A stretch of 29,297 nt of DNA from Candidatus Altarchaeota archaeon (GTDB lineage Archaea; SpSt-1190): contig JAUUZA010000005.1 of NCBI GenBank assembly GCA_030590165.1, positions 1 to 29,297 of the forward strand, read 5' to 3'. The number at the start of each line of letters is the position of its first letter. Positions within the stretch are counted from its first letter, which is position 1. This document shows, in pieces, positions 2,348 through 25,555 of the stretch. The notes below the pieces were generated by a model that worked only from the letters and a program-made list of their open reading frames with translations, made no database searches and had not been told where the DNA came from. Position numbers and translations under genes: made by a program.

Positions 2348-3637
2348 GTGATTGGTGAATTAGGTAAGCGTTTAAGAAATTCGATTAGGTCTTTTGCTTC
2401 GAAAGGTAGGGTTAATGAGAAGGAATTGTCTGAATTAGTAAGGGAATTACAAAGGGTCCTTATTTCAAGTGACGTCAACGTAAAACTGGTTTCTGAGCTG
2501 TCAAAAAGAATTAAAAAACGAAGTTTAAATGATAAACCTTTACCTGGATTAACTGTCAAAGAACACGTTTTAAGAGTGGTTTATGATGAGCTTGTGGCAT
2601 TAGTGGGTTACGGTGTTGAAATTCCTCTGAAAAATGACATAAAATTAGCTGTTCTTGGTCTTTTTGGTTCAGGAAAGACCACAACTTCAGCAAAATTAGG
2701 TTATTGGTTAAAAAAGAAAGGAGTTAAACCTATTTTAGTAAGTTTAGATAAGGATAGACCTGCAGCATACGATCAATTGAAGCAACTGGGTGAAAAAATG
2801 GGGTTAATTGCTGAAAGGGAAGTTACAACAAGCCCTTTCATTGTTGATACTGCAGGAAGAGACGCTTTAAGTGATGAGATGCTTAAAGAAGCAAGTAAAA
2901 TTATTAATAAACTTAAACCCGACCATGTTTTTCTTGTTATTCCTGCAGAAATGGGTCATGAAGCAGGTAAACAGGCATTAGCTTTGAAAAAATTAATCAC
3001 GTCAGTAATTATTACAAGAATGGATGGTTCTGCCAAGGGAGGTGGTGCTCTCGCAGCGTGTGCCAACGCAGGAGTCCCAATAGCTTTCATAGGAATTGGT
3101 GAAAGAGTTGAAGACCTTGAATTATTTGACCCAAAAAGATATACTTCAAGACTTTTGGGTTGGGGTGATATCAAAGGACTATTGGAAAAGGCCGAAGAAG
3201 TGAAAACTGAAGTCGGTATGCTTGATTTTAATAATCTTAATATGGTGAGTTTCTATAAACAAATGGAAGCCTTAACAAAAATGGGACCATTTGAAAAAGT
3301 ACTTCAAATGGTTGGACTCACAGACCTCGATAAAAAGACCACTGGTGATATGAAATCAAAATTAAAGAATTACAAATCAATAATTGATAGTATGACCTTG
3401 CCTGAAAGATTAGACCCAGACATAATAAATAGTTCAAGAATTGAAAGAATTGCAAAAGGGAGTGGGACTTCCTCACAAAGTGTTAGAAGTCTTTTGAAAG
3501 AATTTAATATGATGAAAAAGATGGTTAAACGAATGTCAAAGGGAAAATTTAAAGGAATGAAAGGGATGAAGGGAATGAAAGGTATGAAGGGAATGAAAGG
3601 AATGAATTTAAAAGCCCTTAAAGGTATGAAATTTTGA
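2348..3637 (+). CDS. srp54: Signal recognition particle GTPase SRP54, shortened I-box
   Basis: SRP54 binds signal peptides and SRP RNA and docks with FtsY to send ribosomes to the membrane. The 429-residue product has an N-terminal four-helix domain, a GTPase domain with G1 GLFGSGKTTT (104-113), RPAA (137-140), DTAGR (167-171), G4 TRMD (223-226) and GIGER (249-253), and a Met-rich M domain from about 290. The M domain separates it from FtsY. Two features are odd. Only about 26 residues lie between RPAA and DTAGR, where family members normally have about 45, so most of the insertion-box element is missing. The G4 motif has Arg where Lys is usual. The C-terminus is a KGM repeat (402-419). The start is GTG, chosen from the N-domain length and the TATA spacing. 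The stop overlaps the next start (TGATG). Confidence 0.95.
   Translation: MIGELGKRLRNSIRSFASKGRVNEKELSELVRELQRVLISSDVNVKLVSELSKRIKKRSLNDKPLPGLTVKEHVLRVVYDELVALVGYGVEIPLKNDIKLAVLGLFGSGKTTTSAKLGYWLKKKGVKPILVSLDKDRPAAYDQLKQLGEKMGLIAEREVTTSPFIVDTAGRDALSDEMLKEASKIINKLKPDHVFLVIPAEMGHEAGKQALALKKLITSVIITRMDGSAKGGGALAACANAGVPIAFIGIGERVEDLELFDPKRYTSRLLGWGDIKGLLEKAEEVKTEVGMLDFNNLNMVSFYKQMEALTKMGPFEKVLQMVGLTDLDKKTTGDMKSKLKNYKSIIDSMTLPERLDPDIINSSRIERIAKGSGTSSQSVRSLLKEFNMMKKMVKRMSKGKFKGMKGMKGMKGMKGMKGMNLKALKGMKF
3551..3604 (+). repeat. 9-bp tandem repeat encoding (KGM)6 in srp54
   Basis: Six in-frame 9-bp units of the form aa(a/g)-gg(a/g/t)-atg encode Lys-Gly-Met six times at residues 402-419. Third-position differences between units (aaa/aag, gga/ggg/ggt) indicate that the repeat is not brand new and may be kept at the protein level. 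Confidence 0.9.
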
Positions 3638-7116: not shown

Positions 7117-8753
7117 CACATTTTTTCTGGAACATCTATACCTAGTAAATTAAGTCCAGTCTGTAATGTAGTGAATGTGATTTTTGAAATCCATTCCTTT
7201 TCTGGAATTCCACCAAGTCTTTTAGCAACATAAAGTTCATTGAATGCTTGTGAGGTCTTTATTAAAAAATTTGCAATTAAATCAGGTCGCCTTAATTTTG
7301 CAGAGTTAAGTACACTAAATCTGAATTTAATAAGTTTTCTTGCAAGGGAAATTATGTCGTCATCAAGTCCAGCTTTACCTTCTCCGAATTTTTCAATAAT
7401 TCTTTTTGCACGAATTGCAGAGTATTGAATATATGGTCCTGTTTCCCCGTCAAAGGAAAGCATATTCCAATTGAAAACAATATTACGTGTTCGATTATTT
7501 TTTAGGTCGGCAAATTTGACGGCTCCAATTCCAATCTTTTCGGCAATTTCTAGGTCAGAGTCGCCTCTTTCAGACATAATGTTTTTTACTTTTTCAATAG
7601 ATTCATTTAATAAATCTTTTAGAAAAATAACACGACCTTTTCTTGTACTCATTTTACCTTCAGGAAGTCGTATTAATCCAAAATCATTATGTTCCATTTT
7701 AGCAGTAACTTCTGATTTTGAAAGTGCTTCAAATAATTGGTGAAAATGAAATTTTTGTTCACTTCCAACAACATAAAGCATTAAATCTGGATTGAATTTT
7801 TTGAATCTCCAAAGTCCTGAGGCTAAATCTCTTGCCGAATAAATAGTAGTTCCATCACTTTTTTGTAATATAAGTGGTGGGTTTCCTTCAATAGGAATTA
7901 CTATTGCTCCTTGGTCTTTTTTTGCAATTCCTTTTTCAAGTAAGTCGTCAACGAGTTTTTTGGCGTCATCAACAAATTTACTTTCACCTGCGTCAATAAG
8001 TTCAAGGATATTTAATTTTTTGTAAGTTTTGTTAAATTCTTTTAAACTGAGTTTTCTGAATTTTTCCCAGAGTTCAACAGCTTTTTTATCTCCCTTTTCA
8101 AGTCTTATAAACCATTCATTTGCTTTTTCTTCCAATACTGTTTGTTTTTTTGTTTTGTCAAGTTGTATATGATTTTGAAGTGGATTCATTTTTTCTTTTT
8201 CAACTTCTTCATGAAATTTTACATAAAGCCTGAGTAATTCTTTAATGGGTTCTTTTTCTATATCAGAATCCCATTCAGAGTATGCTGCAAGAAGTTTTCC
8301 AAATTGCATACCCCAATCTCCTAAGAAATTGATTCCGTACACTTTCCAACCAAGGAAAGAAAAGATTTTATTTAAACTGTCTCCAATTATTGTGCTTCTT
8401 AGATGTCCAATTGAGAAAGGTTTTCCAATATTTGGGGAAGAGTAATCAATTACAACTATTTTTTTTATTGGCTCAAATTCTATTAAATGATTGAGATTAT
8501 AAATTAAAGCTTCTTTTGTTAAGAAAAAATTAATAAAAGCCCCTTCAGTTCGTATTTCAATGCCTTTAACTTTAATTTGGCTTGCCCATTTTTCTGCAAG
8601 CTCCTTTGGGTTAACACCTCGTTTTTTAGCAAGTTTTAAGGGAAGGGATGTTGAAAAATCTCCAAATTCCTTAAATTCCATGAAAAAAGCAGTTTCTCCA
8701 GAAATTTTCTTAAGTTGGAGTTTAACTTCTTTAACTAAATTCTCAATGAACAC
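7116..8753 (-). CDS. argS: Arginyl-tRNA synthetase
   Basis: Charges tRNA-Arg. The 545-residue class I synthetase has SSPNIGKPFSIGHLRS with the HIGH-type signature SIGHL (114-118), the Trp/Gln segment GDWGMQFGKL, the tyrosine-containing SARDLASGLWR, the KMSKS-equivalent KMSTRKG (367-373), and a DALR-type C-terminal anticodon domain (YIQYSAIRAKRI) ending in PEKM, as ArgRS proteins usually do. The length is normal. The start is GTG at 8753; a TATA-like CCTTAAAATAA (8772-8782, minus strand) is centred about 24 nt upstream, fitting a leaderless message. It is divergent from the HerA-like gene and convergent with ileS, and its stop abuts the candidate sRNA. Confidence 0.95.
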   Translation of the reverse strand: MFIENLVKEVKLQLKKISGETAFFMEFKEFGDFSTSLPLKLAKKRGVNPKELAEKWASQIKVKGIEIRTEGAFINFFLTKEALIYNLNHLIEFEPIKKIVVIDYSSPNIGKPFSIGHLRSTIIGDSLNKIFSFLGWKVYGINFLGDWGMQFGKLLAAYSEWDSDIEKEPIKELLRLYVKFHEEVEKEKMNPLQNHIQLDKTKKQTVLEEKANEWFIRLEKGDKKAVELWEKFRKLSLKEFNKTYKKLNILELIDAGESKFVDDAKKLVDDLLEKGIAKKDQGAIVIPIEGNPPLILQKSDGTTIYSARDLASGLWRFKKFNPDLMLYVVGSEQKFHFHQLFEALSKSEVTAKMEHNDFGLIRLPEGKMSTRKGRVIFLKDLLNESIEKVKNIMSERGDSDLEIAEKIGIGAVKFADLKNNRTRNIVFNWNMLSFDGETGPYIQYSAIRAKRIIEKFGEGKAGLDDDIISLARKLIKFRFSVLNSAKLRRPDLIANFLIKTSQAFNELYVAKRLGGIPEKEWISKITFTTLQTGLNLLGIDVPEKM

Positions 8754-8823
8754 TTTAAATTAGACTCTGGCTTATTTTAAGGTTTAGCGATATCCATATT
8801 TATTAATCAAAAGCTATACATTT
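8754..8823. promoter_or_regulatory. Divergent leaderless promoters, argS and HerA-like gene
   Basis: The 70-bp gap holds two TATA-like boxes. CCTTAAAATAA on the minus strand (8772-8782) lies about 24 nt before the argS GTG. ATATTTATTA on the plus strand (8796-8805) lies about 24 nt before the GTG at 8824. Neither start has a Shine-Dalgarno sequence. Confidence 0.55.
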
Positions 8824-10782
8824 GTGTCAGTACTCTTTGGTGCAAGTAAAGGCCTCATAAAAAAGTATGGGGACGGAAAAAATATGTATGTTGCGAGAAC
8901 TGACGCAAGTGAAGATTTTTTTGTTGATTCAATTAAACCTCACGTAATTTTTATTTGTGGTGCGAGGGGGTCTGGGAAGAGTTATACTATGGGTGTGCTC
9001 GTTGAAGAACTTGCTTACAAAAATGATGCCGTTGCTAGTATTGTTGTAGATCCGATTGGTGTTTTTTGGAGTATGAAAAAGGCAAATAAAAGTGAAAGAG
9101 AAAAAGAAAGTTTAGAAAAATGGAATCTTGAACCGAGGGGATTTGATAATATTAGGGTTCTTGTACCAATTGGTGCGAAAAAACTTCCACCTCAAAGTTT
9201 TCAAGGTTATTTTTCTCTAGAACCAAGTGAATTAACTGCAAGTGATTGGACTTTTACATTTGGACTTGAGCGCTTTTCACCTGCTGGGCTTTTAATTGAT
9301 AATGCAATCCAAAAATTAGGTGATTCATTTGATATTGATGATTTAGTTCATATAATTGAAACTGATGAAGATTTTCAAAGTAAAGAGCGTGGATTTTCAA
9401 GGCAAACTCGCAGAGGTTTAATTTCAAGATTTGAAAGTGCAAAGTTTTGGGGGATTTTTGGAAAGAAACCAACACCATTGGAACACATTGCTCAATGTGG
9501 GAAGGTTACGGTTCTTGATATTTCATTTTTAGAAGAAGCTGTTGCTGCAATGGTCGTTGGAATTATTGCAAGAAAATCACTTGATAGGCGAAAGATTGAA
9601 AGTAGAAAAGAAGCTCTTGGTCAACCGTCAAATTTCCCTCCAATTTGGCTTTTTATTGATGAAGCTCATATTATGGTTCCAAAAGATAGAAAAACAGCTG
9701 CAAGTGACAGTATAATTGAGTATGTTAAACAAGGACGTAAACCGGGATGTTCAATAGTTTTGGCGACTCAGCAACCGAGTTCAATTAATAGTGAAGTCTT
9801 GAGCCAACTTGATATGATGTTTGTTCATCAATTAGTTTTTGAAGATGATATTAAAGCAGTTAGAAAAAGAATGCCAGCAGCTTTACCAAAAGAATGGAAT
9901 GTTAATTTTATTCGTAAATTAAAAATTGGTGAAGCCCTTGTAGGCGATAGGGAAACTACTGGTGTAGCATTGATTAAAACAAGACCAAGAATGAGTCAAC
10001 ACGAAGGACGTAGTACTTTGGCTCTTGAAAAGTTAACGCCAATATTAGAAGTGAAAGACCCAATTATTAAAACTGATGAAATTGAAGAGTTAGAAAAACA
10101 GAGTGAATTTAAAAAAGCAAAAAAGAAAGTAAGAGGAAAAAGAATTTCCTCCCTTAGAAGTAAATTAGATTTGGAAGACATTGAAGAATTATTATCTAAA
10201 AAAACAGGATTTGCATTATTCAAAAGAAAAGAAAAGTATGATGTAAAAATGAAAGTGTATTGGCCTTTTTGGTTGGTTAAGGGGATGGGGCTTGAGGGAA
10301 GCATTGAGTTTTTGTTTGATGGTATTTTTGGAGAAATAGAAGGTTCTAAAGGACTTCAACGTCTAATTGAGTTAAATCCTTTGGCTGCAAGAATTATGAA
10401 TGGTCCGGGAACTCTTGAAGTTATTTCTAAAAGATGTGGGGCAGATTCACGCATGGTAAAACTTCAACTTAATAGATTAGTGAATTTTGGGTTGGTTAAG
10501 GTTAGTGGAAAAGTTGATAAGAAGTATATTCCAAAATTAGCCTTCCCTTCAAAACTTAAACAATTTACTCGAAAAGTTATAGATGTAGTTCCTGAAGGAA
10601 GAATTATGAAACCAATTTTTGATCCCGACAGAAAATTATGCAAACTTTTAGGGATAAAATTAATTGAAAAAGAATTAATTTATATTCCGTTTGCACTCTT
10701 TAGAACAGTGAAGAAACAACAGATTTGGGTAAATCTTGCAACTGGTGAGATGGAGCAAAGAAGAATTAAGTTGAAAATATAA
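8824..10782 (+). CDS. HerA-like AAA+/FtsK-superfamily ATPase with C-terminal winged-helix-like region
   Basis: The 652-residue protein has Walker A GARGSGKS (46-53), a HerA-type beta-rich start, an Arg-rich segment FSRQTRRGLISRF (191-203), Walker B LFIDEAH (276-282), and sensor-like ATQQPS (314-319), all typical of HerA/DUF87 hexameric DNA or protein translocases. Beyond about residue 400 there is a Lys-rich linker and a long extra domain. It includes a probable winged helix around 525-575 (GTLEVISKRCGADSRMVKLQ) and a basic C-terminus. No nurA nuclease gene is nearby, so classical end-resection HerA is not certain; this subgroup may act differently. The start is GTG, placed by the TATA spacing. 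The 3' end overlaps the convergent membrane-protein gene by 17 bp. Confidence 0.85.
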   Translation: MSVLFGASKGLIKKYGDGKNMYVARTDASEDFFVDSIKPHVIFICGARGSGKSYTMGVLVEELAYKNDAVASIVVDPIGVFWSMKKANKSEREKESLEKWNLEPRGFDNIRVLVPIGAKKLPPQSFQGYFSLEPSELTASDWTFTFGLERFSPAGLLIDNAIQKLGDSFDIDDLVHIIETDEDFQSKERGFSRQTRRGLISRFESAKFWGIFGKKPTPLEHIAQCGKVTVLDISFLEEAVAAMVVGIIARKSLDRRKIESRKEALGQPSNFPPIWLFIDEAHIMVPKDRKTAASDSIIEYVKQGRKPGCSIVLATQQPSSINSEVLSQLDMMFVHQLVFEDDIKAVRKRMPAALPKEWNVNFIRKLKIGEALVGDRETTGVALIKTRPRMSQHEGRSTLALEKLTPILEVKDPIIKTDEIEELEKQSEFKKAKKKVRGKRISSLRSKLDLEDIEELLSKKTGFALFKRKEKYDVKMKVYWPFWLVKGMGLEGSIEFLFDGIFGEIEGSKGLQRLIELNPLAARIMNGPGTLEVISKRCGADSRMVKLQLNRLVNFGLVKVSGKVDKKYIPKLAFPSKLKQFTRKVIDVVPEGRIMKPIFDPDRKLCKLLGIKLIEKELIYIPFALFRTVKKQQIWVNLATGEMEQRRIKLKI

Positions 10783-11620
10783 TTTTTTCAACTTCTTTAG
10801 TTTCTTTATTTACGCCTCCTGTTGCTTCAAGAATTTTAAGAAGTATAATGGCAAAAATTCCTGATAGACCAGAAAGAAGATTCCCTAAAAATTGGAAGAC
10901 AGTAAATATTGCAAAGGCCATGACGGCCTTAAAAACCCAATCATAATCCCCAATAAGCATCATAACTTGGTTCTCAAGTGATGAAACAAGAATATTTTGA
11001 ATTGTTTCGTTTTTCGAGAAAGTTGGAAATTGATTTTCAAGTTGTTGAATAAATCCAAGTTCAAGTTCAGTCCGTTGGTCATTAAGCGTTGAGATACATA
11101 AAATATTATCTCCACATTGTCCACTTATCATTTCATTCACTAGTGAATCAACACATTCTTGACCGGTATATGTGGTTTCACATCCTATGACGGGAACTAA
11201 TAAATTTATTGCTAATCCCGAAACGGCAGTAGGGATTTTAAATTGAATGCTGTTATAGATTACTAAAACTGAGATTAGAACAAATATAGTGTACCCAGAA
11301 AATGCGACTTTTGCTAAGTTTTGAATTTTTGGTTCAATCATATTATTTTCTGCTGAATTTACGACTGAATTCCCGATGAATGCAAATATGAATAAACCGA
11401 GAGCGCGCAAATCAAAGAAAGCAAAAAGTAAAAGAGGTAAAATAAAAAAAGAAGGCATTTTAATAATTCCTGCAATTGTTATTAAACTCCCAAAAAGAAC
11501 TATAAGAACAAGACCAATAATAGACCCAGGGTTTAGATTAATTGAAATTGGATTAAATTTTAATAAAAATAAGCCGGTTATTAAGATTAAAACTGCAATT
11601 AATTCCTTACAGTACTTCAC
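10766..11620 (-). CDS. Polytopic membrane protein with a four-Cys external loop
   Basis: A 284-residue protein with hydrophobic segments at about residues 8-26, 31-54, 56-86, 103-126 and 230-268 (possibly two helices). Between them is a hydrophilic domain of about 90 residues with four cysteines (CETTYTGQEC...GQCGDNILC), probably disulfide-bonded outside the cell. The start is GTG, with a minus-strand ATAAATA box (11641-11647) about 24 nt upstream. The last 17 bp overlap the end of the HerA-like gene. I do not recognise the family, and the neighbours give no functional clue. Confidence 0.75.
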   Translation of the reverse strand: MKYCKELIAVLILITGLFLLKFNPISINLNPGSIIGLVLIVLFGSLITIAGIIKMPSFFILPLLLFAFFDLRALGLFIFAFIGNSVVNSAENNMIEPKIQNLAKVAFSGYTIFVLISVLVIYNSIQFKIPTAVSGLAINLLVPVIGCETTYTGQECVDSLVNEMISGQCGDNILCISTLNDQRTELELGFIQQLENQFPTFSKNETIQNILVSSLENQVMMLIGDYDWVFKAVMAFAIFTVFQFLGNLLSGLSGIFAIILLKILEATGGVNKETKEVEKIIFST

Positions 11621-11640
11621 AATATTCTATTTTTGATTTG

Positions 11641-11647
11641 TATTTAT
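11641..11647 (-). promoter_or_regulatory. TATA box for the four-Cys membrane protein
   Basis: ATAAATA on the minus strand is centred about 24 nt before the GTG at 11620, so this gene can be transcribed separately from the wecB-like gene that ends 41 bp upstream. Confidence 0.45.
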
Positions 11648-11661
11648 GTCTTATAGCTTTA

Positions 11662-13047
11662 TTATAGAAAATCAACTTTAGATTCTTTTAGAATTCCCTT
11701 TACTTCGGGAACGGTTCTCATTAGACTAAAATCGCTGTCAATAAGGCCTTTAATTTTTTGAATTATTTTTATGTTTACATCTTTTCCATAGAGTCGTTTT
11801 GGATTTGTCATTTTATCGAGGATGTCTTCTCTTCGCATTACAAAACGAATCATATTATCAACAAAACCTTTATGCGGTGGAACTAAAATATTTGAATGTG
11901 CTTTATTCACTGTTTCAGGTCGGTCTGTATTGTAACGTACGGTTAAGCAAGGAATTTTTAGTTCATTCAATTCTTCTTGCATACTACCAGAATCAGTTAA
12001 TTCAGCAGCACACCTTCCTGACCTCAAAAATTCCATTACATGTGCATAATTTTTCCAAAGTGGAGTGAATACAAAGTTGTCATAGGTTTTACTCATACTA
12101 ATGATTTTAGTTCTTAAGTTGAATTTCTCAAGAGAATTTTTGGTTCCTGGAAGTTCCACCCACACAATTGGTTGTCCCTCCTTGATTAGACTTGTGATTC
12201 CATCAAAGAAAGCCTTAAAACGAGATTCAGTTAAGTTTATTCGCCTATGTAAGTCCGCCCTTATCCAATTATCATATTTTTCCAGTTCTGGGTAAATATC
12301 AAAAACACTATGTTCTAATTTTGTTTTTTTAGTGAATTCCATTGTATCGACTATACCATTTCCAACAGTGAATATTCTGTCGCTTGGATATCCTTCTCTA
12401 ATTAAATGTTCACGATTAAGTGGGAGGGGTGTGAAGTGAATTTCAGAACTTGCTCCAGCGACAAAAGTGTCCCATTGTTCTGGGAAGGGTTCTTGTCTTG
12501 AAAGATGCCATTCACCATACCATTGTTTTTCAAAAAAGTTTGCGGGACTTGATAAATCAAGTTTTGGAGACATCCCACGTAATCCTGCTTCATTCTGAGC
12601 TACTTTTTGAGCAGTTCCAAGCATCCATCCTATTGGAAAAATTCCAGCAGCTAATGTATCTCCATGAACAATTGGTAGAAATTTTGTTTTTGGGAATTCT
12701 TTTTTTAAATATCTTCCAACAAATCCAGCTTTTGCCACAGTTTCATAGCTTTTTTGTAACATATCTCCCCTAATTCCTAAATCGAAGGCTATGTAGGGAG
12801 TTATATCAAATTCTTTGAGTCCAAAACCCAATAAATTATCGTAGTGTTGACCAGTATTAATTACAATTACAGGAACGCCTAATTTTTTACTTGCAGGCAA
12901 AAGTCCCCATTGCTTATAAAAATCAGGTTTTGTGGCCGTTACAACACACAAAACAAAATCTTCACCTTTAATAGAATCAAGAACCTTTTGATGAATTTTA
13001 ATTTCACCAACCTTTGTTGTATTGTTAAGTTTTAACATTTTATTCAC
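11662..13047 (-). CDS. wecB: UDP-N-acetylglucosamine 2-epimerase family protein (WecB-like)
   Basis: WecB-type epimerases interconvert UDP-GlcNAc and UDP-ManNAc for surface polysaccharide or N-glycan precursors. Family marks include TATKPDFYKQWGLLPA near the start, NTGQHYD, VHGDTLAAG, QNEAGLRG, VGNGIVDT, HRRINLTESRF, and the UDP-binding LTDSGSMQEE followed by PCLTVRYNTDRPET. At 461 residues it is longer than usual (about 370-390). Much of the surplus falls after EAGLRG, in a Trp-rich stretch (FFEKQWYGEWHLSRQEPF) where the common form has a short PEE.NR segment. The start is GTG at 13047, overlapping the preceding stop by 4 nt (GTGA), which argues for translational coupling. A different sugar-nucleotide substrate is possible. 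Confidence 0.8.
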   Translation of the reverse strand: MNKMLKLNNTTKVGEIKIHQKVLDSIKGEDFVLCVVTATKPDFYKQWGLLPASKKLGVPVIVINTGQHYDNLLGFGLKEFDITPYIAFDLGIRGDMLQKSYETVAKAGFVGRYLKKEFPKTKFLPIVHGDTLAAGIFPIGWMLGTAQKVAQNEAGLRGMSPKLDLSSPANFFEKQWYGEWHLSRQEPFPEQWDTFVAGASSEIHFTPLPLNREHLIREGYPSDRIFTVGNGIVDTMEFTKKTKLEHSVFDIYPELEKYDNWIRADLHRRINLTESRFKAFFDGITSLIKEGQPIVWVELPGTKNSLEKFNLRTKIISMSKTYDNFVFTPLWKNYAHVMEFLRSGRCAAELTDSGSMQEELNELKIPCLTVRYNTDRPETVNKAHSNILVPPHKGFVDNMIRFVMRREDILDKMTNPKRLYGKDVNIKIIQKIKGLIDSDFSLMRTVPEVKGILKESKVDFL

Positions 13048-20495: not shown

Positions 20496-22121
20496 GTGGA
20501 ATTTCAGATAACTATAGCCGGTGAAGCCGGTCAGGGAATAGCTAAATCTGCGGAGATTGTATCTAAAGACTTTGTTTCACGTGGTTTTTATGTCTTTAAT
20601 TATCGTGATTATGGTTCGTTAATTAGGGGTGGAGAAAATTTTAATGTCTTAAGAATTAGTGATGAACCTGTATACAGTAACGATTGGACTAATGATTTTG
20701 CGATTCTTTTTGGGAAGTTTTCGTCACATCATTTGAATAAAATGAAACAAAATGGGATATCAATTGGAACTCTTGAAGGGGTTCAAGCTAAAATGAATCC
20801 GAGTTTAATTATTAAGGAAATTGGGGCAAATAAAATTGTTGAGAACGCAGTTTTACTTGGGGCTCTTTACAAGGCAATGGGACAACCAATTGAAGCTTTA
20901 ATTAAACAAATGGAAACTTATGGTAAACACACAAAAGTGAATCAAATTGCGGCGCAAAAAGGTTATGATACATATAATGGAGAAGTGAATGAAATAAGAT
21001 TCAATGTGCGAAAAGGAAATAGATATTATGTTAGTGGGAGTAATGCAATTTCACAAGGTGCGATTGCTTCAGGAATGGATTTGTATATAGCGTATCCAAT
21101 GACTCCAGCTACTCCTGTTCTTCATATTTTAGCAAGAGTGAAAGATGATGTTAGAGCAATTCAATTAGAAAATGAAATTGGTGTAATTAGTGCGGGACTT
21201 GGTGCAAGTTTTGCAGGAGCTAATGTTATGGTTGGAACTAGTGGTGGTGGGTTTGCTTTAATGAATGAGGCCTTGAGTCTTCAAGGAATTTCAGAAATTC
21301 CAATTGTTACATATATGTGTATGAGACCGGGTCCTGCTACGGGAATACCAACATATACTGGACAAGGAGACATGCAATTTGTGTTAAACAGCGGTCACGG
21401 TGAATATTCAAAAGTTGTTATTGCCCCAGGAGATCCTAAGGAAGCATTTGAACGAACGGCTGAAGCATTTTATTTAGCTAATAAATATAGGGTGTTAAGT
21501 GTTTTATTAACTGATAAGCATTTAGCTGAAAGTGATTATACTTTTGATTCGTCCCCAACTTTTAGGGTGAAACCAACAAGAAATTTAGTGAATCAAAGTA
21601 AGGATTATCTGAGTTATAAAATAACGGAAGATGGTAATTCCCCAAGAGCGGTTCCCGGAAAAGGAATAGCACGCGCAACAAGTTATGAACATGATGAAAT
21701 GGGTTATACTGTTGAAGAAAGTGAAAAGATTAAGATTATGGTTGAAAAAAGATTAAGAAAAGCAAAAACACTTGAAGATGCAGTCAAAAAACTTGAACCA
21801 ATTACTGTTTATGGAAAGGGTAAACGACTTGTAATTAGTTGGGGTTCAACTAAGGGTGCAATTGTTGATGCAATTAAGCTTCTTGAAGATACAAGATTTT
21901 TACAAATTTCATACCTTAAACCTTTCCCGAGTGAAGAAGTTAAAAAAGAAATTGAGGAAAGTTTGGATGTAGCAATTATTGAAAATTCAGCAACAGGTCA
22001 AATAGCTGCATTAATTAGGGAAAATACAGGACTCGAAATAAAAAAGAAAATTCTCAAATATGATGGGCGTCCATTTGGATATTTAGAATTAGCAGACAAA
22101 ATTAAGGAGATGTTTAAATGA
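20496..22121 (+). CDS. korA: 2-oxoacid:ferredoxin oxidoreductase, fused gamma-alpha subunit
   Basis: One half of an enzyme that oxidatively decarboxylates a 2-oxoacid to an acyl-CoA and reduces ferredoxin (or runs in reverse). The 541 residues hold an N-terminal gamma domain of about 175 residues (ITIAGEAGQGIAKSAEIVSK, FNYRDYGSLIRGGENFNVLR), then the alpha pyrimidine-binding domain (ISQGAIASGMDLYIAYPMTP, QLENEIGVISAGLGASFAGA, TSGGGFALMNEALSLQGISE, RPGPATGIPTYTGQGD) and a C-terminal domain (VISWGSTKGAIVDAIKLL). This gamma-alpha fusion is typical of the two-subunit 2-oxoglutarate-type (Kor/Oor) enzymes, but pyruvate or other 2-oxoacids cannot be excluded. The start is GTG. The stop overlaps korB by 4 nt (ATGA). 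Confidence 0.92.
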   Translation: MEFQITIAGEAGQGIAKSAEIVSKDFVSRGFYVFNYRDYGSLIRGGENFNVLRISDEPVYSNDWTNDFAILFGKFSSHHLNKMKQNGISIGTLEGVQAKMNPSLIIKEIGANKIVENAVLLGALYKAMGQPIEALIKQMETYGKHTKVNQIAAQKGYDTYNGEVNEIRFNVRKGNRYYVSGSNAISQGAIASGMDLYIAYPMTPATPVLHILARVKDDVRAIQLENEIGVISAGLGASFAGANVMVGTSGGGFALMNEALSLQGISEIPIVTYMCMRPGPATGIPTYTGQGDMQFVLNSGHGEYSKVVIAPGDPKEAFERTAEAFYLANKYRVLSVLLTDKHLAESDYTFDSSPTFRVKPTRNLVNQSKDYLSYKITEDGNSPRAVPGKGIARATSYEHDEMGYTVEESEKIKIMVEKRLRKAKTLEDAVKKLEPITVYGKGKRLVISWGSTKGAIVDAIKLLEDTRFLQISYLKPFPSEEVKKEIEESLDVAIIENSATGQIAALIRENTGLEIKKKILKYDGRPFGYLELADKIKEMFK

Positions 22122-22972
22122 TAAATTTGAATACGTCAGAACAAAATACATGGTGTCCCGGATGTCATAACTTCGTTATATTAAGTTGTGCAAAAAAAGC
22201 AGTAAGTGAATTAATTAATGAGGGTCACGCTAAACATGAAGATTTTGTTACTGTTACTGGAATTGGTTGTCATGCAAAATTGTATGATTATATAAACACA
22301 AGTGGATTTTATGGACTTCATGGAAGAGCCATTCCTACTGCAAATGGAATAACTTTGGGGAATCCAAAACTTAAAGTAATGACCTTTGCTGGTGATGGAG
22401 ATGTATATGCCGAAGGAATAAGTCATTTTATAAATGCTGCAAGGGTAAATCCAAATTATGCTTTGTTTGTGAATAATAACAAAATTTTTGCACTTACTAC
22501 TGGACAAGTTACCCCAACATCTGAAAAAGGTTTTCCTGGAAGAAGTACTCCTAAAGGAAACCCATTCACTCCAATGAATCCTGTTTCACTTGCACTTGAA
22601 GCTGGAGCAAGTTTTGTTGCAAGAGAGTATTCACTTGATGTGAAAAATTTGACAGAAACTATGAAAGCTGCAATAAAACATAAGGGGTTTGCATATGTAG
22701 ATATTATTCAACCGTGTATTACTTTTCACAATTTTACTGAATATGTAAAAGATAAAATGTATAGATTAAATGGACCTTTTGAATACAAAAAAGCGATGGA
22801 AAAAGCTAAAGAATGGGATTATTCAGATAGTGCAGATGCCAAGATTCCTGTTGGAATTTTTTATGAAGAAGAAAGACCGACATTGAGCGATTTATTTGAT
22901 AATAAAAATTGGAGTGAGGCTTATCCTGAAAGAAAAATAAATTCCGCGCTTTGGGAGCGTTTTAAAGTCTAA
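22118..22972 (+). CDS. korB: 2-oxoacid:ferredoxin oxidoreductase, beta subunit (TPP-binding)
   Basis: The thiamine-pyrophosphate and iron-sulfur subunit that partners korA. The 284-residue protein has the [4Fe-4S] ligand segments WCPGC (near residue 12) and GIGC, a further candidate Cys in IIQPC, HGRAIPTANGITLGNP, and the TPP/Mg motif GDGDVYAEG followed by NPNYALFVNNN. No separate delta (ferredoxin-like) subunit gene follows, so electrons should pass from this cluster directly to free ferredoxin. It is translationally coupled to korA (ATGA overlap). Strong T-runs follow the stop. Confidence 0.93.
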   Translation: MINLNTSEQNTWCPGCHNFVILSCAKKAVSELINEGHAKHEDFVTVTGIGCHAKLYDYINTSGFYGLHGRAIPTANGITLGNPKLKVMTFAGDGDVYAEGISHFINAARVNPNYALFVNNNKIFALTTGQVTPTSEKGFPGRSTPKGNPFTPMNPVSLALEAGASFVAREYSLDVKNLTETMKAAIKHKGFAYVDIIQPCITFHNFTEYVKDKMYRLNGPFEYKKAMEKAKEWDYSDSADAKIPVGIFYEEERPTLSDLFDNKNWSEAYPERKINSALWERFKV

Positions 22973-23037: not shown

Positions 23038-23056
23038 CATTTCTTTTTAATTTAGA

Positions 23057-23070
23057 GAAACCTTTTTATG
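23057..23070 (+). promoter_or_regulatory. BRE/TATA element for the RimK-like cassette
   Basis: GAAA (23057-23060) followed by CTTTTTATG (23062-23070) resembles an archaeal BRE plus TATA box. Its centre is about 19 nt before the ATG at 23085 but about 25 nt before the in-frame GTG at 23091, which may be the real leaderless start. Confidence 0.5.
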
Positions 23071-23084
23071 TCGATAATTTTGGA

Positions 23085-24011
23085 ATGAAGGTGGTGTCTA
23101 GGGCAAGAGTTGCGATTGTTGGTCCTGCTGAATTTAAAGATAAAATTATGCCGGCGTTTTTCAAGAAGTTTTCAACAGTAATGTATTTTCCGTCTGAAAG
23201 TGTGAAGCTTAGTGTTGGAAAAAAAACAACAGCAATTGCAGGTAATTTAGATATTGGGACTTTTCACTACGTTTTATTATTACCAAAACAATCCAAGAAA
23301 GAATTTTATTGTACTCTTTCGGCAATTTTATCAAAACGAACAAAAGTTTCTGCACCAAAAGATACTCTTCTTTATTTTTGGAATCGTCCTGCAATGTTAA
23401 GGCGAATTTCAAGTGCCGGAGTTCCTATTGAAAGGTCGGCTTCAATTTCTCAAGATGTTGCTTTTAATTTTATTAAAGATAATTTCAAATTTCCAATTGT
23501 TCTAACGACACCTAAAGGAAAAGAAATAAGAGTTAATAAAGAAGAAACACTTAAAGATGTTCTTTCACTTTTTTCTGCAGGTCACACAGTTTCCATTAGA
23601 AAACCAATGAAGAATGCAGAAGAATATGTAACATTTGTTAGTGAGAAAGAAACAGTTGGATTCAAAGTAGTGAATGATAAAAAACTTCCAGTTAAAGTGG
23701 GTTCAGATATTTCTTCATTAGCACAAAAAGTTAGAAGGAAATTTAATCTTGATTTTTGTTCTATTAAGTTTATTAAGAAAGGAAAGAAAATTTGTGTGAG
23801 AGACATTAAACTTGTTCCTGATTTTGAGGCTTTTTTTAATGTTTCAGGAAAAGATGTTGCGACAGTAATGGCAAATGAAATTATTCATAAAATTACTGTT
23901 CCTGATATTTCTGAACTATTTGAAAAGACAATAACTGGAATTGGAAAGATTATTGATAAAGCAGCGAGGTGGGTAAGTAATGAAATTAGCAATCTTAGGG
24001 CCTTTAAGTAG
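23085..24011 (+). CDS. ATP-grasp pseudoenzyme, degenerate paralogue of the next gene
   Basis: This 308-residue protein lines up by eye with the RimK-like protein encoded next to it: RPAMLRRISSAGVPIERSAS against NKFLTLVRLAEKGIPVPETH, FKFPIVLTTPKGKEIRV against MTYPLVLKLLYGSKGVG, and NLDFCSIKFIKKGKKICVRD against GTQICGVDIMSSPDGPVIIE. Key catalytic positions are changed. The ATP-binding Lys is Thr141, the Gly-rich loop is lost, and the three metal ligands Asp, Glu and Asn correspond to Lys228, Arg239 and Ile241. It is therefore probably inactive as a ligase and may bind substrate or regulate its partner. The start is ATG 23085 or GTG 23091 (see promoter). It overlaps the next gene by 32 nt. The C-terminal tail (about 270-308) has no counterpart. 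Confidence 0.75.
   Translation: MKVVSRARVAIVGPAEFKDKIMPAFFKKFSTVMYFPSESVKLSVGKKTTAIAGNLDIGTFHYVLLLPKQSKKEFYCTLSAILSKRTKVSAPKDTLLYFWNRPAMLRRISSAGVPIERSASISQDVAFNFIKDNFKFPIVLTTPKGKEIRVNKEETLKDVLSLFSAGHTVSIRKPMKNAEEYVTFVSEKETVGFKVVNDKKLPVKVGSDISSLAQKVRRKFNLDFCSIKFIKKGKKICVRDIKLVPDFEAFFNVSGKDVATVMANEIIHKITVPDISELFEKTITGIGKIIDKAARWVSNEISNLRAFK
23966..23972 (+). promoter_or_regulatory. Shine-Dalgarno for the RimK-like gene
   Basis: GAGGTGG, matching the archaeal 16S anti-Shine-Dalgarno, lies 7 nt before the ATG at 23980, inside the preceding gene. It fixes the start of this internal operon gene and contrasts with the leaderless first genes. Confidence 0.65.
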
Positions 24012-24855
24012 GAATTATGAAGAAATACGATTATTGGAAGAAGGAAAGAAACTTTTTGATACTGTTAGTTATTTTCCCATACCTCAAGTAGTTATTGAAA
24101 CTAATGGAAAAGGTTCTGAATTGACTTTTAAAAATAAAAAACTAATAAATTATGATGTTATTTTACCTAGAATTCCGAGAACTTACAAAAATTTTGGAAC
24201 TTCAATTATTGAAGCTTTGTACGCTTCAGGAAAATCCTTACCACTTGAACCTTGGTCAATAATTGCATCTCATAATAAATTTTTAACCTTGGTGCGACTT
24301 GCTGAAAAAGGAATTCCCGTTCCTGAGACTCACCTTTCACTTAAACGTTCAGTTCTTGAGAGTGTATTTGATGATATGACTTATCCTCTTGTTTTGAAAT
24401 TACTTTATGGTTCAAAAGGAGTCGGAGTTATGTTTGCCGATTCGAAGCAATCAGCAATAAGTATAATGGATGCACTTGAGCGATTTGATGAACCAATGTT
24501 TGTTGAAAGTTTTATTCCACCGGGAAATGAAGATATCCGTGCTTATGTAATAGGAAATAAAGTTGTTGCAAGTATGAAGCGTGTTGCTCATGAAGAGGAA
24601 AGGCGTGCAAATATTGGAATGGGCGGTGAAGGTTTTCCGTATAAACTTACAACTGAAGAAAAAAAATTAGCAATTAAATCTGCAAAAGCAATGGGAACGC
24701 AAATTTGTGGTGTTGATATTATGTCTAGTCCCGACGGTCCTGTAATTATTGAAACAAATGTGAATGCACAGTTTCAAGGAATTGAAAAAGCAACTAAAAA
24801 AAATATAGCAAAAAAAATTCTTACATATGTTAAAGGTAGAGTACATGAAAAGTAA
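23980..24855 (+). CDS. RimK-like ATP-grasp ligase
   Basis: RimK-family ATP-grasp ligases form amide bonds between a carboxylate and an amino acid: glutamate onto ribosomal protein S6 in bacteria, or steps in lysine/arginine, coenzyme F420 and tetrahydromethanopterin pathways in archaea. The 291 residues contain the ATP-binding Lys in YPLVLK140, the Gly-rich loop YGSKGVG (143-149), VESFIPPGNEDIRAYVIG (175-192), basic MKR and GEGFP segments, and Mg ligands Asp246, Glu258 and Asn260 in CGVDIM and IIETN, all intact. An N-terminal pre-ATP-grasp domain occupies about 1-95. It is the middle gene of a three-gene overlapping cassette. No substrate can be deduced, and a role in protein tagging is only one possibility. 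Confidence 0.9.
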   Translation: MKLAILGPLSRNYEEIRLLEEGKKLFDTVSYFPIPQVVIETNGKGSELTFKNKKLINYDVILPRIPRTYKNFGTSIIEALYASGKSLPLEPWSIIASHNKFLTLVRLAEKGIPVPETHLSLKRSVLESVFDDMTYPLVLKLLYGSKGVGVMFADSKQSAISIMDALERFDEPMFVESFIPPGNEDIRAYVIGNKVVASMKRVAHEEERRANIGMGGEGFPYKLTTEEKKLAIKSAKAMGTQICGVDIMSSPDGPVIIETNVNAQFQGIEKATKKNIAKKILTYVKGRVHEK

Positions 24856-25555
24856 ATGGCTAAATCGGCTAATTGAGTATGGCAGTTATGGTGACGCCCC
24901 TATTGTTTTTATTGCGCCTCATGAAGGGGGTGAATTAATAAAAATTGATGTTGGTGAGTCTAAACAAATTGTAGAAATAAGTGAGAGAGGAACAGGTTAT
25001 TTAGTTAAGTTAGCCGCAAAACAAATTGGAGCTACTTTTATTATTAATCAAGTTCCACGTATTCAAGCTGATTTTGCGAGAGATCCAAAGCTTTTAGGAA
25101 AAGGAGAAATTTTTAGATATTTTTTACTTGGAAAACGGCGTGAACTTAAGTGTCACATTAATAATAATTATTTGAATCTAATGGAACGATTTCATGGATT
25201 AATTGAAAAATTAAATCCTTCTTTTATAATTGATTTTCACAGAATGAGTAGTGAAGATATTGATATTAGGCTTGGATTTGGTGTTGGTCGTAAGTATATT
25301 GGAGGGAGTGAAAATGCACTTGACTTTAGGAAAAGAATATTTAATAAATCAAATTTTGATGATTTAAAAATTATGATAAGTAAACGAGTTCTTGCTGGGG
25401 AGAGTGAATTTATTCTTAATAAACATCACAAAGGAAGACGAGCGGCTTTAGTTGAATTTAGTTCTCAAAGGGGATTTGATTTGGAAAAAGGTAAAATTTC
25501 TGCTCGATATGAAACTTTTGTAAAAAAATTAGCGGAAGTTTCAAATGAATTTTAA
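24845..25555 (+). CDS. N-formylglutamate amidohydrolase-like metalloprotein
   Basis: A 236-residue soluble protein that resembles the N-formylglutamate amidohydrolase (FGase, Pfam PF05013) fold, related to M14-type zinc carboxypeptidases. An early PHEGGE box (His26, Glu27 and Glu30) follows a hydrophobic strand, then ADFARDPKLL in place of the family Asp-Arg segment, HINNNYLNLMERFHGLIEKL, the second metal/His strand FIIDFHRMS, and a late LVEFSSQRGF with the conserved Glu. Such enzymes hydrolyse amide bonds next to glutamate-like groups. The start is taken as ATG 24845 (ATG 24827 is an alternative adding six residues), overlapping the RimK-like gene. It ends 2 nt from the convergent AP endonuclease. 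The match is at fold level and the activity is inferred. Confidence 0.65.
   Translation: MKSKWLNRLIEYGSYGDAPIVFIAPHEGGELIKIDVGESKQIVEISERGTGYLVKLAAKQIGATFIINQVPRIQADFARDPKLLGKGEIFRYFLLGKRRELKCHINNNYLNLMERFHGLIEKLNPSFIIDFHRMSSEDIDIRLGFGVGRKYIGGSENALDFRKRIFNKSNFDDLKIMISKRVLAGESEFILNKHHKGRRAALVEFSSQRGFDLEKGKISARYETFVKKLAEVSNEF

Follow-up and report, generated by a model that had tools for sequence, protein, structure and literature searches.

Background

The LysX/ArgX enzymes, which work with the LysW carrier, are RimK-fold ligases, and a partner hydrolase releases their product at a later stage. N-Formylglutamate amidohydrolases (FGases) and poly-gamma-glutamate hydrolases cut glutamyl or acyl-glutamate amides, and amidoligases are reportedly the subject of a 2009 study by Iyer et al. 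The RimABK system of Pseudomonas comprises the glutamate ligase RimK, the retropepsin RimB and the phosphodiesterase RimA (PMC11957791, PMC7343187), and RimB removes the glutamates that RimK has added (PMC11957791). The Rlo operon, also from Pseudomonas, encodes the retropepsin RloA, the seven-transmembrane inactive transglutaminase RloB and the ATP-grasp protein RloC (PMC12239564).

Here we describe a three-gene cassette, ORF1-ORF2-ORF3, found in a stretch of archaeal DNA of 29,297 nucleotides (the window). The trio, which is present in several archaeal lineages with tiny genomes, probably adds an amino-acid tag to some target and removes it again.

Results

Organization of the cassette

A first-pass annotation of the window had described three plus-strand genes behind one BRE/TATA element, and its coordinates and overlaps were exact (Table 1). 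ORF1 and ORF2 overlap by 32 nt, and ORF2 and ORF3 by 11 nt if ORF3 begins at ATG 24845 or by 29 nt if it begins at ATG 24827. The start at ATG 24845 is favoured because the ORF3 proteins of relatives align best from its equivalent. For ORF1, GTG 23091 may be the true start, since this start is used in relatives, and the TATA centre would then lie approximately 25 nt upstream. The promoter element was present as described, and a similar AAAsCTTTTTAT motif was found upstream of ORF1 in two family members (ACAAACCTTTTTATG and GGAAGCTTTTTATCC) and, in weak form, in two further ones. Across the window and five relatives, ORF1 and ORF2 overlap by about 29-41 nt; in L039 they share 4 nt. Such overlaps are consistent with translational coupling.

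Genes encoding the alpha and beta subunits of a 2-oxoacid:ferredoxin oxidoreductase (KorAB) are located just upstream of the trio in the window (20496-22972). They were rejected as cassette partners, since they adjoin the trio in G005 and G006 and not in G001, G004 or the Aenigmatarchaeota loci. Elsewhere in the window, an SRP54-like gene (2348-3637) encodes a protein whose C-terminus is a GMK repeat (KGMKGMKGMKGMKGM).

Table 1. Features of the window cassette and of related archaeal loci
Feature	Location	Strand	Remarks
ORF1, RimK-fold pseudoenzyme	window 23085..24011	+	308 aa; start may be GTG 23091
ORF2, RimK-type ATP-grasp amide ligase, predicted active	window 23980..24855	+	291 aa
ORF3, FGase/poly-gamma-glutamate-hydrolase-fold amidohydrolase, likely Zn (predicted)	window 24845..25555	+	236 aa; alternative start 24827
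BRE/TATA-like element GAGAAACCTTTTTATG upstream of operon	window 23055..23070	+	direct reading; putative function
MscS-type channel genes	L113 3287-4894; L114 3829-5394; L115 7367-8899		before degenerate/active RimK pair
MscS-type channel genes	L116 8656-10224; L117 3078-4649; L118 3210-4709		before degenerate/active RimK pair
Retropepsin-like PF05618 gene overlapping active/degenerate RimK pair	L137 5119-7237		pair behind it; recalls bacterial rimB-rimK
Array of RimK, degenerate RimK, MscS-like, permuted ATP-grasp and two FGase-like genes	L132 5397-11030	-
Circularly permuted ATP-grasp	L009 9686-10582; L010 8722-9618; L040 10149-11039
Circularly permuted ATP-grasp	L132 7318-8256	-	within RimK/FGase-like operon
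Class-I GATase and permuted ATP-grasp; CP_ATPgrasp_2-like gene on opposite strand	L040 7831-11039		beside L040 trio

A predicted active and a degenerate RimK-type protein

Profile searches identified ORF2 as a RimK-type ATP-grasp ligase, with scores of 151.7 bits against PF08443 (E 2.2e-44; cut-off 21) and 188.9 bits against TIGR00768 (cut-off 143.4), and it is the sole PF08443 match in the source genome (724 kb, 88% complete). Catalytic residues were compared by aligning 11 ORF1 and 11 ORF2 proteins with E. coli RimK, whose numbering is used here; they include two ATP lysines, the glycine loop and the Mg ligands D248, E260 and N262. The equivalents of K100, K141, the glycine loop, D187, R189, R203, R211, N213, D248, E260 and N262 were kept in all 11 ORF2 orthologues. 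With a complete RimK-type ATP, Mg and substrate site, ORF2 is predicted to be active, in agreement with the earlier claim that the middle protein retains the RimK catalytic residues.

Several specific identities of ORF2 were rejected using NCBIfam equivalog cut-offs. ORF2 scored 133.5 bits against LysX (cut-off 275.6), 133.6 against the tetrahydromethanopterin ligase MptN (350), 146.8 against the S6:glutamate ligase RimK (PRK10446; 331) and 49.9 against the F420 glutamate ligase CofF (300). In a 67-row IQ-TREE phylogeny, the LysX, MptN and RimK references grouped together, across a branch with support of 98/93 from ORF2, so that the tree also argues against the first three identities; it had no CofF row, and CofF was judged on the profile only. 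The first-pass annotation had named grouping with a known lysine, F420 or methanopterin ligase as counterevidence to its reading; neither the tree nor the NCBIfam models placed ORF2 with the lysine or methanopterin enzymes, and the score against CofF stayed below the profile cut-off.

ORF1 matched no Pfam family and gave a weak score of 32.7 bits against TIGR00768. Profile-profile comparison (hhalign) nevertheless related it to the ORF2 family with a probability of 99.7 (E 3.5e-26), and its AlphaFold model (pLDDT 84, with low confidence in the C-terminal 34 residues) matched RimK 7qyr with a VIA Z of 26.4 (rmsd 2.5 over 267 residues), placing ORF1 in the RimK fold; LysX/ArgX were also among the structural matches. 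Residues D187, R189, R211, N213, D248, E260 and N262 were absent from all 11 ORF1 proteins (0/11), and the glycine loop was deleted or replaced across these orthologues. ORF1 is therefore, as had been proposed for the first ATP-grasp protein, a RimK fold that has lost its ATP, Mg and substrate residues and, on this evidence, is not an active ligase. It is read as a pseudoenzyme and not as a decaying gene because it is conserved at 20-49% identity without its catalytic residues. The C-terminal NEISN.R.SK of ORF1 was discarded as a functional motif, since the same bases encode the conserved ORF2 start, MKLAILGP.

An FGase-fold hydrolase

The resemblance of the third protein to FGases, noted in the first-pass annotation, was supported by the fold of its model and not by Pfam profiles. 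The window ORF3 matched no Pfam family, PF05013 included, and lies below sequence-profile detection; the best PF05013 score among its relatives was 17.4 bits, below the cut-off of 28.9 bits. Searches of PDB sequences with ORF3 as a single sequence or as a profile gave nothing convincing, and its relatives were revealed by structure comparison only. The ORF3 model (pLDDT 89.8) matched FGases 2q7s (VIA Z 16.7, rmsd 3.3 over 208 residues) and 2odf (16.6) above all other families, which assigns it to the FGase fold; the next matches were the poly-gamma-glutamate hydrolases 21dc, 5onj and 3a9l (Z ~13), followed by M14 carboxypeptidases. A common fold does not establish a common reaction. Residues H26, R72, D76, R79, H132, D140 and E204 were invariant in 11 ORF3 proteins and are candidate catalytic residues; among them, H26, H132 and E204 were considered as possible metal ligands and catalytic Glu. 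An HxxxE motif was present in only part of the family, and a second metal ligand is not obvious from the alignment.

Conservation and phylogeny of the trio

ORF3 was found in 5/101 and in 6/394 relatives, the sixth of the latter being a 20-bit match that was discounted. The named relatives in the family of the window are labelled 'Candidatus Altiarchaeota' DPANNHV bins and archaeon SpSt-1190. A second archaeal phylum, in which the named members are Aenigmatarchaeota, had ORF3 in 7/156 genomes, one of the seven being a contig-end fragment. These second-phylum loci came from a contig scan with the ORF2 alignment; the contig scan with ORF3 alone as query gave no match. The order ORF1-ORF2-ORF3 was the same in all 11 genomes that have ORF3 and intact flanks (five of the window's family and six Aenigmatarchaeota). 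Conservation of the trio among relatives, which the first-pass annotation had made a test of its reading, was thus observed, and because 11 genomes share the order, with protein identity falling as low as 20-28%, the arrangement is not due to chance. One family member without the trio, G002, has a single RimK (41%). The genes flanking the trio differed between lineages, so that the neighbours give no hint of the target.

ORF2 formed one clade (99/98) and ORF1 another (99/99) in the IQ-TREE analysis, with similar branching, which indicates that the two genes have been co-inherited.

A permuted ATP-grasp protein beside some trios

Directly behind ORF3, G001 and G004 have a fourth gene (ORF4), which encodes a circularly permuted ATP-grasp protein. 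ORF4 matched the RimK, YheCD and TTL models in two out-of-order pieces, its first 50 residues corresponding to the C-terminus of ATP-grasp models and the remainder to the model start. In the non-permuted relatives of L113, L114 and L118, the segment SVD.FFDE..PWI.ELNSKPG is located at the C-terminus; in ORF4, the Mg-binding C-terminal segment has been relocated to the N-terminus. No permuted ATP-grasp was found in the genome assembly of the window (88% complete).

Other archaeal RimK pairs

A wider survey of RimK genes in 91 archaeal genomes identified further active/degenerate RimK pairs in other DPANN-type archaea. In six genomes (L113-L118), the pair lies directly behind an MscS-type channel gene, and in L119 a RimK pair also adjoins MscS. 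A fused domain resembling C39 peptidases was detectable in four of the six L113-L118 MscS proteins, and the catalytic Cys and His of this domain were lost in three of the six, which indicates that not all of the associated 'hydrolases' are active. The degenerate RimK partners of L113-L118 branched apart from ORF1 (IQ-TREE), suggesting that the pairing of active and dead proteins is old or has arisen more than once.

A second FGase-like family, related to ORF3 by profile comparison (probability 95, E 4e-8), was located near RimK genes in L041, L042, L078-L080, L120, L131 and L132. In L131 and L132, genes for RimK, degenerate RimK, an MscS-like protein and two FGase-like proteins lie on one strand; in L120 the family adjoins an unpaired RimK; and L078-L080 have several FGase-like paralogues. 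This family was found in 6/394 genomes, in at least one of which (L133) no RimK is nearby. The hydrolases beside other archaeal RimK pairs therefore include retropepsin-like (L137), C39-like on MscS (L113-L118) and second-family FGase-like proteins (L041, L042, L131, L132). L038 contains a large helicase-like ORF (8074-12402) with an apparent intein interruption at Walker A (GTGK-C...HN-T).

Of the overall interpretation in the first-pass annotation, the co-conservation of a dead/active RimK pair with an FGase-like gene held up, while the multi-lineage theme and the permuted ATP-grasp had been missed.

Discussion

We consider the chances about even that the three genes form a translationally coupled amide-ligase/amide-hydrolase module acting on one amide-linked amino-acid tag. 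ORF1 and ORF2 would form a heteromer in which ORF1 gives a substrate-binding or regulatory surface. ORF2 would use ATP to form an acyl phosphate and join an amino acid, glutamate or one like it, to a carboxylate on a substrate that is a protein or resembles a peptide, and ORF3 may split the amide bond made by ORF2, which would make the tag reversible or limit its length. By analogy, the cassette would work like bacterial RimK-RimB, with an unrelated metallo-type hydrolase replacing the retropepsin RimB. This analogy, which is the best precedent (PMC11957791), and the swapping of one hydrolase type for another beside archaeal RimK pairs strengthen the idea that a tag is written and erased. A broader reading is more tentative, and we hold it to be rather doubtful: a widespread, undescribed archaeal system of reversible tagging, in which an obligate heteromer of active and pseudo-RimK is the writer, the erasers (FGase-like, retropepsin-like or C39-like hydrolases) are exchangeable, and some lineages have tied the system to MscS and the permuted ATP-grasp.

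The extra ATP-grasps and the class-I GATase of L040 make small-molecule assembly the main rival, and together with the FGase-like paralogues of L078-L080 they look equally like such assembly as like protein tagging. The cassette would then make a small molecule decorated with an amino acid, namely a coenzyme, an osmolyte or a short peptide. The RimK pair would add the amino acid, ORF3 would either trim or deprotect an intermediate or serve to recycle the product, and further steps would fall to the permuted ATP-grasp, the CP_ATPgrasp_2-like protein and the GATase found in relatives. The permuted ATP-grasp beside ORF3 in G001/G004 and in the L132 operon fits this proposal, as does the glutamylation of coenzymes by the RimK relatives MptN and MyfB (PMC8141765). 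However, no other biosynthetic gene is located beside the trio in the window, G005 or G006, coenzyme pathway genes were never recurrent next to it, and ORF2 is apart from MptN in the tree and fails the CofF model; we regard this alternative as possible, at a fairly low probability.

A carrier-protein system like LysW/LysX/LysK, in which ORF2 loads an amino acid on a carrier for modification and ORF3 releases the product, is compatible with a ligase and hydrolase pair and with the LysX/ArgX ligases among the structural matches of ORF1, but it appears very improbable, since ORF2 falls short of the LysX model and outside the LysX clade and no carrier gene was found in the cassette or recurrently beside it at the loci. 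Alternatively, ORF3 might be a general scavenging amidohydrolase or peptidase, functionally unrelated to the RimK pair, that stays in the operon because the genes are regulated together. It has no Pfam match or known substrate, and other archaeal RimK pairs lack ORF3 and have different hydrolases. This explanation is unlikely, however, given that ORF3 lies directly behind the RimK pair in every genome with intact flanks, and the second FGase-like family is also found by RimKs in L041, L042, L120, L131 and L132.

If the tagging module is real, DPANN-type archaea with genomes of 0.6-1.2 Mb would have their own version of reversible tagging, with a pseudoenzyme built in and a different hydrolase fold. 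It would give a way to test protein modification or osmoregulation in organisms that are hardly culturable, and the active/dead ligase pairs would form a natural series for studying how pseudoenzymes steer ATP-grasp specificity.

Comparison with known systems

The first-pass annotation knew of no described archaeal system with this trio, and neither such a system nor the combination of a pseudo-RimK with an FGase-fold hydrolase was found in the open-licence literature, the coverage of which is incomplete. Neither ORF2 nor the cassette is a member of RimABK, LysX, MptN or CofF. As in RimABK, a RimK-fold ATP-grasp ligase is co-encoded with a hydrolase, but the hydrolase of the trio has the FGase and not the retropepsin fold, a dead RimK paralogue is present, and there is no RimA; no RimB-type retropepsin was found beside the window trio, and one was found beside a different archaeal pair (L137). 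To our knowledge, a target of the bacterial S6 type is not expected in archaea.

The Rlo operon is comparable in bringing together an ATP-grasp protein, a protease and a pseudoenzyme, and RloB has a parallel in the archaeal MscS-C39 fusions whose C39 domains are degraded. However, the Rlo pseudoenzyme is a membrane transglutaminase and not a ligase, Rlo has no FGase-like hydrolase, and the window trio has no membrane gene. LysX/ArgX-LysW shares the pairing of ligase and hydrolase, whereas ORF2 is outside the LysX model and clade and no carrier gene was seen beside the trio. FGase (PF05013) and the phage poly-gamma-glutamate hydrolase PghP share with ORF3 its fold as well as R...D..R and DxH-type motifs; ORF3, a putative hydrolase, differs in scoring below the Pfam cut-off and in being encoded in a RimK-pair operon. 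Like ORF4, the circularly permuted ATP-grasps PF04174 and PF14403 have a moved Mg-binding C-terminal segment, but ORF4 matches RimK/YheCD/TTL and has a non-permuted counterpart in other archaea. In conclusion, the parts of the cassette belong to known superfamilies, and its logic resembles that of RimK-RimB.
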